A stretch of DNA of 64,000 nucleotides, from assembly GCA_003149635.1 (NCBI GenBank), contig QCWI01000007.1, positions 1-64,000 of the forward strand, in the 5' to 3' direction. The translations under genes and the position numbers were made by a program. Below the pieces are notes generated by a model. The model saw only the letters and a program-made list of their open reading frames with translations, had not been told where the DNA came from and searched no databases. Of this stretch, positions 25,989-27,709 are shown piece after piece. Source of the DNA: Fluviicola sp. XM-24bin1. Its GTDB lineage: Bacteria > Bacteroidota > Bacteroidia > Flavobacteriales_D > Crocinitomicaceae. Positions within the stretch are counted from its first letter, which is position 1, and each line of letters begins with the position of its first letter.

Positions 25989-26603
25989 CTAGAAGTCAAT
26001 ATCCAAATTAAACGTACTTTTCAGCGTATGTAAGTTAGGATTTTTTCTCGCAAGTGCCGCGAATTTGTCCTTACCGCTGAGGAATTTCACCTCTTCTTCC
26101 GGGTTGGAAGTAAGTTCCAATGAGATTTCAAGCGCATAGTTTTTCAGTCCAGCACGAAGGTAATCCACAAGATCTGAAAGGATTGGATTGATGTAGTCGA
26201 TTTGCGTTTGGTTGTCAACTTCCATTCGATATTTCGTTCCTTCAATCAGAATCGGATCCCGCTTCATTAAGGCACTGAAGAAAGTTTGTTTCCCTTGATT
26301 CTTCATATCGAAGGCAAAACGACGCCACATCATTTTCAGCTCGTCCATCCCGAAATCGTTCATAGGCATGTTGCTCATGTCGATTTTCGACGCTCCGTTT
26401 TCAGGAGAATTTTGATGCATTAGCTTTTTGATGGAAATACTGGACGAGCTCAAGTTTCCTGATGGGGCAGACATCACCTTAGGTTCCGGCTTTAATGCAA
26501 CCGGTCGTTTTGGTGGGGTGGAAGCTTTCTGCTTTGGTTTTGGAGCGCGTTCACGCAATTGCTCGGGGAACGGAATGATCTCAACTAGATCCGTCAGTCC
26601 TTT
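25989..26603 (-). CDS. dnaX: C-terminal (tau) part of DnaX, reached by -1 frameshift
   Basis: This frame continues the DnaX protein after the A10 run. It has no start codon of its own with normal context: the only upstream candidate is a GTG at 26633 inside the 0-frame coding sequence. It encodes about 204 residues: a proline/lysine-rich linker ('RERAPKPKQKASTPPKRP'), then a folded C-terminal domain with 'MWRRFAFDMKNQGKQTFFSA' and an end 'LHTLKSTFNLDIDF', as in the DnaX tail of Flavobacteriales. A one-base backward slip joins it to the 369 codons before the slip, giving about 573 residues, the usual size of full-length DnaX. A homopolymer sequencing error is the other explanation. Confidence 0.72.
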   Translation of the reverse strand, partial: KGLTDLVEIIPFPEQLRERAPKPKQKASTPPKRPVALKPEPKVMSAPSGNLSSSSISIKKLMHQNSPENGASKIDMSNMPMNDFGMDELKMMWRRFAFDMKNQGKQTFFSALMKRDPILIEGTKYRMEVDNQTQIDYINPILSDLVDYLRAGLKNYALEISLELTSNPEEEVKFLSGKDKFAALARKNPNLHTLKSTFNLDIDF

Positions 26604-26619
26604 TTTTTTTCTTGCTCCT
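26577..26619 (-). promoter_or_regulatory. Candidate programmed -1 frameshift signal in dnaX
   Basis: On the coding strand an AGGAG (26619-26615) is followed 8 bases later by A-AAA-AAG, the heptamer used by E. coli dnaX, inside a run of ten A. Eight bases further a stem GATCT/AGATC (26591-26587 with 26581-26577) with a 5-base loop begins. The 0-frame ends two codons after the heptamer at TGA 26596-26594. All three features sit at spacings like those of known -1 sites. Confidence 0.6.
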
Positions 26620-27709
26620 GAACAAGGGAACACAGTTGCATGAGCGCCATTTCGACGAGCAAGCGTTGATTTTTCGAGGCCTTGTATTCGACATCGGCAC
26701 GACTCAATACGCCCAGCGCACGAACGATAAGGTTAGCCGCCAATTCTTTGGACTGTGCTACATACTTTTCTTGTATGGATTCACCCACTTCCAATAATTC
26801 CGCCGTGCGAACGTCTTTACAGACAAGCAAATTGCGGTAATGATTGGCCAATCCAACGATAAAGTTGTGTTGATCGAAACCGCGTTCTACGATATCATTG
26901 AATAACAAAAGTGCTCCTGGAATATCTTCCTTCTGCGCATATTCAACTATACGGAAGAAATAATCGTAATCAAGAATGTTGAGGTTGTCAATGACATTCT
27001 GATACGTAATTGAATCTCCAGAAAACGTAACAATTTGATCGAATATCGAAAGCGAATCACGCAAAGCTCCGTCGGCTTTCTGTGCAATAATATGCAAGGC
27101 TTCTGGATCTGCTTTTACTTCTTCATTTTCTGCAATGTGCGCCAAATGATCAGCGATATCTTTTACCTTAATTCTGTTGAAGTCAAAAATCTGACATCGG
27201 GACAAAATCGTAGGAATGATCTTATGCTTTTCCGTTGTAGCCAGGATGAAAATCGCGTGTTTCGGTGGCTCCTCTAAGGTCTTCAAAAAGGCATTGAATG
27301 CTGAAGTTGACAACATGTGAACCTCGTCGATGATGTACACCTTGTGTGTTCCTAACTGCGGCGCTATGCGAACCTGATCAATTAGGTTTCGGATATCTTC
27401 TACCGAGTTGTTGGAAGCGGCATCTAGTTCGTAAACGTTTAGGGAGTTTCCTGTATCAAAAGATTGACAAGAATCACATTCGCCACACGCCTCCATGTTT
27501 TCTGTTCGGTTGAAACAGTTAATGGTTTTCGCAAGAATTCGAGCGGTAGATGTTTTTCCAACTCCACGTGATCCGCAGAACAAGAATGCCTGAGCGAGAT
27601 GATCGTTTTTGATCGCGTTTTTCAACGTTGCTGTAATAGACTTTTGACCTACGACTGTGTCGAAGGTTTGGGGTCTGTATTTGCGGGCTGATACTACGAA
27701 ATCGCTCAT
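26594..27709 (-). CDS. dnaX: DNA polymerase III gamma subunit (0-frame dnaX product)
   Basis: DnaX is the ATPase core of the clamp loader that places the beta clamp (dnaN at 41589) on DNA. The 371-residue 0-frame product has the Walker A 'FCGSRGVGKTSTARILAKT', four zinc cysteines around residues 60-80 (INCFN, EACGECDSC), Walker B 'KVYIIDEVHMLS', 'LKTLEEPPKHAIFILATTE' and the sensor 'IPTILSRCQIFDF'. It ends EQEKKKD then TGA right after a run of ten A. I start at the ATG at 27709 (MSDFVVSARKYRP); a TTG at 27727 sits within the promoter. The remaining C-terminal part is in the -1 frame. Confidence 0.93.
   Translation of the reverse strand: MSDFVVSARKYRPQTFDTVVGQKSITATLKNAIKNDHLAQAFLFCGSRGVGKTSTARILAKTINCFNRTENMEACGECDSCQSFDTGNSLNVYELDAASNNSVEDIRNLIDQVRIAPQLGTHKVYIIDEVHMLSTSAFNAFLKTLEEPPKHAIFILATTEKHKIIPTILSRCQIFDFNRIKVKDIADHLAHIAENEEVKADPEALHIIAQKADGALRDSLSIFDQIVTFSGDSITYQNVIDNLNILDYDYFFRIVEYAQKEDIPGALLLFNDIVERGFDQHNFIVGLANHYRNLLVCKDVRTAELLEVGESIQEKYVAQSKELAANLIVRALGVLSRADVEYKASKNQRLLVEMALMQLCSLVQEQEKKKD

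Follow-up and report, generated by a model that had tools for sequence, protein, structure and literature searches.

The dnaX gene of Fluviicola sp. XM-24bin1 probably yields both gamma and tau, independently of which of the two its DNA frame specifies, by programmed slippage of RNA polymerase on a run of ten adenines, with a hairpin in the nascent RNA directly 5' of the run as the putative stimulator. The gene lies on the minus strand of the window, the 64,000-nucleotide stretch of contig QCWI01000007.1 analysed here. It combines an A10 run, two frames that share the product between them, quick stops in the non-tau frames and a predicted upstream hairpin, and these features recur in relatives in which the frame carrying tau has changed. 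Beyond this gene, we lean towards an ancient hairpin-A10 cassette across Bacteroidota and Chlorobi, working by polymerase slippage, in which the DNA frame would be nearly neutral and flipped dozens of times, making dnaX a frame-indifferent essential gene.

Frame 0 starts at the ATG at 27,709 and encodes 371 residues ending in KKKD, followed by TGA (26,596-26,594), right after ten A as the first-pass annotation had described. This ORF with its stop (26,594..27,709) encodes a gamma-like DnaX with AAA+ ATPase, lid and domain III, identified by Pfam and NCBIfam matches (TIGR02397, E 2.1e-131). The A10 run, T10 on the plus strand, occupies 26,601..26,610, defined by the sequence and the family alignment, and the junction codons on the minus strand read CAG GAG CAA GAA AAA AAA AAG GAC TGA. 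The -1 frame has no stop until 25,989. As also claimed in the first-pass annotation, it supplies the DnaX C-terminal domain, 203 residues plus stop (25,989..26,600), recognised by an HMM of frame-0 tau C-termini (E 1.6e-43) and by NF011531. Positions 1-370 of this NCBIfam gamma/tau model are matched by frame 0 and positions 438-614 by the 203 residues of the -1 frame; taken singly, the two pieces score 676.4 and 76.4 bits, both below the full-length cut-off of 685. With the clamp-loader AAA+ domains and the tau C-terminal domain both present, the gene is dnaX (DNA polymerase III gamma/tau). The third frame, which is neither gamma's frame 0 nor that of tau, ends at a TGA read from the sequence at 26,581..26,583. 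The whole 3.63-Mb genome contains seven distinct runs of at least ten A, and a search for a phage match gave none.

A homopolymer is error-prone, and a sequencing error had been held to be the main alternative to a programmed event. The same split, however, is present in 28 of the 31 genomes of the genus in which the junction was compared (dnaX was matched in 34 of the 34 genomes searched). Of the remaining three, genome G001 carries tau in frame 0. L006 and L019 share the junction of the 28, with the frame left unassigned by our rule: in one the tau domain is interrupted by a further in-frame stop after 72 codons, and in the other the contig ends. In addition, in an alignment of 22 sequences from the window's family and close kin, all ten A are invariant and the position of the frame-0 stop is constant, as TAA or TGA. 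Across a wider set spanning many families, the window's arrangement with tau in the -1 frame recurs in 124 of 345 loci, and 128 of 130 offset loci have a homologous tau C-terminus in the offset frame, as judged with the HMM trained on frame-0 genes. An error of sequencing or assembly, or decay of the gene, is thereby practically excluded; in favour of it stand the error-proneness of homopolymers and the 21 polarity changes, discussed below, that rest on single rows. Two dnaX matches of the same genus (G335:C11 and G340:C39) have extra stops or end early.

The run itself is widespread. From 421 starting loci, seven were removed as coming from a repeated genome, leaving 414, and three as having an identical junction, leaving 411 distinct Bacteroidota and Chlorobi dnaX loci; a difference of a few bases at the junction may have let some loci enter this set both as named and as unnamed. 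At least nine A are present at the dnaX junction in 352 of the 411, mostly as A10. Counted over the 414 loci, 355 have such a run, with a sharp peak at ten (A9, 52; A10, 272; A11, 27; A12, 2; A13, 2). The same is seen when 295 genomes are drawn evenly from the class (dnaX match in 284, junction compared in 272): a run of at least nine occurs at the junction in 233 of the 272 genomes and in at least one genome of 62 out of 71 families. Elsewhere such runs are rare; the N-terminal coding parts of dnaX in the 411 loci, 404 kb in all, contain two. The run occurs in all three codon phases, and the base 3' of it is G in 153, T in 100 and C in 99 of the 352 loci, so that AAG is not kept. Its presence in all three phases argues that it is conserved as nucleotides, and at the length of the polymerase hybrid (9-10 nt) rather than that of a 7-nt ribosomal heptamer; the RNA-DNA hybrid within RNA polymerase is 9-10 bp long.

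The frame of tau was resolved in 345 loci with a run; it is frame 0 in 215, -1 in 124 and +1 in six, and could not be assigned in seven loci with a run and six without among the 411. By parsimony on a FastTree phylogeny of the N-terminal domain, polarity changed 45 times among the 345 loci, against a mean of 103.7 when states were shuffled; this tree rests on about 340 residues, and errors in it could inflate the count. When 21 single rows are dropped, 25 changes are left. Both states occur within 14 of the 46 families having at least two run-bearing genomes. A swap is visible in a close pair that keeps the run and its flanks, with A9 and gamma in frame 0 in one genome (G269) and A10 and tau in frame 0 in the other (G318). 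Such swaps between close relatives, together with the many frame-0 tau genes bearing the same run, also weigh against a true split, in which gamma alone would be made from frame 0 and the C-terminal ORF translated separately by internal initiation. The ORF that begins 5' of the run and spans 25,989-26,633 does have a GTG there, and we nevertheless regard this reading as highly improbable.

Relatives in which dnaX is one continuous frame without an A run, which the first-pass annotation had named as telling against its proposal, do exist: 52 loci have tau in frame 0 and no run of at least nine, whereas 215 frame-0 loci keep the run. Among the named loci, 17 of 80 lack a run of nine or more, 15 of these being Bacteroidales as judged by record title, including Bacteroides and Prevotella; other Bacteroidales retain it. 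Many Bacteroidales lack both the run and quick stops in the other frames (L058, L061, L066, L072, L073, L083, L084, L109 and others). Judging from sequence, these may make tau alone, or gamma via another route. In one locus (L174, genome G229), and perhaps in L095, the C-terminus appears offset from frame 0 with no A run, and the sequence may be at fault. Finally, in two loci of family f34 (L202 and L400) a long run is missing; an A_AAA_AAG heptamer is present, and the -1 frame stops 2-3 codons beyond it. In L400, AGGGAGG stands just 5' of the heptamer, and this gene looks like a change toward ribosomal shifting of the E. coli type.

The behaviour of the frames beyond the run bears on which machine shifts. 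If polymerase slippage feeds all three frames, both non-tau frames should stop fast, while a -1 ribosomal shift needs only one of them to do so. Both non-tau frames stop within ten codons of the run in 321 of 345 loci. At control points in the same genes, both are closed within this distance in 501 of 1725 N-terminal cases (29%) and 439 of 1725 C-terminal ones, and for the run-less frame-0 loci (n = 43, measured from the match end) the corresponding counts are 15 and 19. The excess holds for the third frame when codons are resampled synonymously, with closure in 200 of 215 frame-0 tau genes against 109.8 expected and in 117 of 124 genes of the window's type against 71.7. Moreover, nine families that always have tau in frame 0 in our sample show closure in 60 of 65 cases, which makes past polarity swaps less likely as its explanation. 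The median distance to the stop is two codons in the frame reached by one extra A and 4-5 codons in the third frame; the earlier closing of the former is expected if insertion of a single A is the main slip. The window itself has what characterises Thermus-type slippage, a run of about nine or more A at the gamma/tau junction and stops soon after it in both non-tau frames.

A second feature lies on the 5' side of the run. Folding of the family alignment gave a stem upstream and none downstream, in which GUUCC pairs with GGAGC. In the window, the predicted hairpin covers 26,613..26,632 on the minus strand, with arms TGTTCC (26,632-26,627) and GGAGCA (26,618-26,613) and a loop at 26,626-26,619, and is separated from the A10 run by a spacer of 2 nt. 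Within the window's family and its close kin, 30 of 40 loci retain all five pairs, against 1 of 240 when the positions are slid. Over the 22 aligned sequences, the share of cells that pair is 93.6%, against a mean of 89.1 in shuffles (none of 500 as high), and the covariation score exceeds that of all 500 shuffles; two of five measures do not exceed the shuffles, and a compensatory change, C-G to U-A, is seen in one of the five stem pairs. Covariation of the stem within the family thus appears modest.

The signal extends over the phylum, with stems in the same place and of different sequence. For 26-nt windows, the mean minimum free energy is -5.69 kcal/mol where the window ends at the run start. 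Other windows within the 150 nt 5' of the run give -1.8 to -3.0 and those 3' of it -1.8 to -2.6; where a window ends at an A4-A7 run elsewhere in these genes, the mean is -2.05 to -1.58. GC content upstream is 0.51 against 0.42 at control sites, so raw fold energies partly reflect composition. Relative to a synonymous null, the upstream fold energy is -6.12 against -3.93 expected. The mean fold z at the run is -1.37, against -0.14 for the control; 59 of 71 families have a mean below zero, versus 36 of 71 at the control sites (Wilcoxon p 6e-6). Stems directly 5' of A10 reach -16.1 kcal/mol in Rufibacter hautae (L042) and -12.5 kcal/mol in Mucilaginibacter psychrotolerans (L045). The hairpin is not universal among dnaX loci: an ungapped hairpin of -3 kcal/mol or lower is found in 159 of 345 loci (9% at control points), the mean z is at or above zero in 12 of 71 families, families f14, f27, f54 and f88 are weak, and Chitinophaga terrae (L082) has no stem before the run. 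Most families have a fold signal at the upstream place, and none is seen downstream. The idea that stronger hairpins offset shorter runs was rejected, as A9 runs have weaker hairpins.

The first-pass annotation had favoured a programmed -1 ribosomal frameshift, with the polarity reversed relative to E. coli. Its programmed part, an event at the A run giving two DnaX forms with the polarity reversed, is supported as far as sequence comparison goes; the E. coli-like stimulators fared poorly. According to such a reading, ribosomes would shift on A_AAA_AAG or A_AAA_AAA, perhaps with AGGAG as an internal Shine-Dalgarno (SD) sequence. The heptamer A_AAA_AAG is indeed in frame in the window, and both accompanying motifs are spaced as had been noted: AGGAG (26,619-26,615) ends 8 bases 5' of the last such heptamer, and the GATCT/AGATC hairpin (26,577..26,591, minus strand) starts 8 bases 3' of it. 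Yet the predicted stability of this hairpin does not exceed that of shuffled sequence (z -0.49). Across 344 loci, downstream stability is close to control (z -0.50 vs -0.33) with a flat energy profile, and a search of 26,300-26,900 for Rfam frameshift elements returned none, only a sub-threshold snoRNA match. At least four of the five downstream pairs are kept in 10 of 38 family-like loci including the window's own, more than in the slid control (6 of 228), for a stem that was picked from the window itself and with two loci (L002 and L256) sharing the window's sequence. Few relatives thus keep the stem, and as judged from folding z and this low retention a role as stimulator is disfavoured, although the retention exceeds the slid control.

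The case for AGGAG as an SD sequence is also poor. The family-like set does have more SD-like motifs than expected (27 of 40 against 11.5), and GAG stands upstream of the run in 31 of 31 sequences of one set and 38 of 40 of another. Outside the family, SD-like motifs occur about as often as synonymous codon choice predicts (67 of 305 against 56.7), and among the starts in the window only 3 of 36 have one, with a background of 9%. Bacteroidia ribosomes are moreover reported not to recognise SD sequences (PMC9976891). Most of AGGAG is contained in the 3' arm of the upstream hairpin. The excess within the family would fit a hairpin arm and an SD sequence equally; one genus member (L022) lacks the GAG codon, and with it GGAG, yet retains the 5-bp stem. 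The motif is therefore probably better explained as the 3' arm of the hairpin, and a role as SD stimulator seems less likely. At the starts of window ORFs of at least 200 residues, A is overrepresented at positions -11 and -12 (0.64 and 0.56 of 36). The 3' end of a 16S rRNA was looked for in the assembly and none was found.

Two further observations are compatible with ribosomal shifting. Among the 130 offset loci, tau needs a -1 shift in 124 and a +1 shift in six, a bias that ribosomal frameshifting predicts; insertion-biased slippage, as reported for Thermus, predicts it too. Since the direction is mostly -1, a test based on variable direction is not decisive by itself. The tRNA scan detected one tRNA-Lys (UUU) and no CUU among 30 of the 31 tRNA matches; it covered 26 of the 30 tRNA loci, inside which the other four tRNAs lie, and the 31st match had no locus. 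A single tRNA-Lys (UUU) is the situation of E. coli, so the tRNA argument made for slippage in Thermus is not transferable. On the other hand, a ribosomal -1 shift requires neither A9-A11, nor closure of the third frame, nor a 5' hairpin, and we consider it unlikely as the sole mechanism. Frame closure and the hairpin on the 5' side both speak for RNA polymerase as the slipping machine and not for the ribosome, and slippage as in Thermus, which the first-pass annotation had named as an alternative, fits the data better than an E. coli-like shift.

Between these stands a mixed reading, in which most of the second product would come from polymerase slippage and some more from -1 shifting by ribosomes on the same A run. 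In principle A10 can serve both machines, and the -1 bias with the single tRNA-Lys (UUU) leaves room for a possible ribosomal share; no observed feature requires it. We hold this reading to be rather unlikely, and it overlaps with polymerase slippage as the main explanation, so that the likelihoods of the two are not exclusive.

For polymerase slippage in dnaX, the following sequence of events can be envisaged. RNA polymerase would hold A10 (T10 in the template) within its 9-10-bp hybrid, and a nascent-RNA hairpin forming just behind it would help the transcript to slip. The resulting mRNA pool would contain molecules with ten A and others with extra, or fewer, A. Transcripts with the templated number would give the 371-residue gamma-like form, and those lengthened by a single A, or changed to the same effect, would enter the -1 frame and give a tau of about 573 residues (367 + KKK + 203). 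The third frame would stop fast and give another gamma-like protein. Here we infer that slippage occurs, that it does so at RNA polymerase and in a useful proportion, and that the hairpin stimulates it. As slippage feeds all frames, the frame encoded in the DNA would matter little, and an indel in or near the run would swap the polarity with neither product lost.

A LiaF-like membrane protein of the same genome (L428, G000:C9:63150-63887; homologues L461-L481) is encoded by a possible second slippage gene, as far as its sequence suggests. A9 or A10 is present in 14 of 21 homologues, its own included, near the boundary of the membrane and LiaF_C domains. The long frame is frame 0 in all 13 genes readable onward, and in L479 the contig ends at the run. 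In the genome studied here the run is directly 3' of a GAACC/GGTTC hairpin, a place that folds little in most of the homologues.

If our reading is correct, the proportions of gamma and tau would be set by polymerase slippage and not by ribosomal shifting across much of a large phylum. A nascent-RNA hairpin stimulator, a device described for insertion sequences in the literature cited below, would be built into a core replication gene, and dnaX genes of the phylum that seem frameshifted or truncated would often be intact. The cassettes, with both polarities in close relatives, also offer a natural series for how hairpins and run length tune slippage.

Several known systems invite comparison. 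In E. coli, where dnaX is decoded with a -1 ribosomal frameshift (PMC5009743, PMC3711429), the gene, the products and the A_AAA_AAG motif are the same as here. In contrast, the polarity of the window is reversed, no downstream stability signal is found over the loci and a role of an SD sequence is unsupported. In Thermus thermophilus, transcriptional slippage on A9 gives two DnaX forms (PMC5009743, PMC1088944), and stops follow soon in both other frames (PMC5009743). The window resembles this case in that an A run sets two DnaX forms with quick stops in both other frames, and differs from it in that frame 0 encodes tau in Thermus and gamma here. For the hairpin, the nearest likenesses are insertion sequences. 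In the Roseiflexus IS630 element, slippage is documented to be stimulated by a stem-loop immediately 5' of the motif, which is T5C5 and allows deletion only (PMC5009743). In IS1447, A9 follows a stem-loop and slippage goes in both directions, a role of the stem-loop being proposed (PMC6211511). Like these, the window has a predicted stem directly 5' of the slip motif, which as in IS1447 is an A run; unlike these transposase genes, dnaX is a core replication gene. An upstream hairpin has also been reported to attenuate -1 ribosomal shifting in human cells (PMC6321510).

The closest precedent is the set of 17 two-ORF dnaX genes from 12 genera described in Antonov 2013 (PMC3711429), nine of which have exactly ten A. 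In the passages available, slippage is proposed for these genes by similarity to Thermus, and it is argued that a conserved direction indicates ribosomal shifting and a variable one slippage. Chlorobi are named in the text and the set includes Bacteroidetes genomes, so some of the nine A10 genes may be Bacteroidetes. As in those genes, the window has adjacent ORFs at a poly-A run, with a stop in frame 0 and tau in an offset frame that is reached by recoding only. Two-ORF dnaX genes with A10 were therefore already known, and the present gene is probably a programmed two-product dnaX of the same reversed kind. Relative to those passages, the wide spread, the polarity reversals, the double frame closure and the 5' hairpin come from the present analysis only, and the partial texts returned by our literature search contained no description of an upstream hairpin or of polarity reversals in Bacteroidota dnaX. 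Within that literature, what appears to be new is a widespread hairpin-A10 cassette with many polarity reversals, in which the frame closures and the 5' hairpin favour the polymerase.
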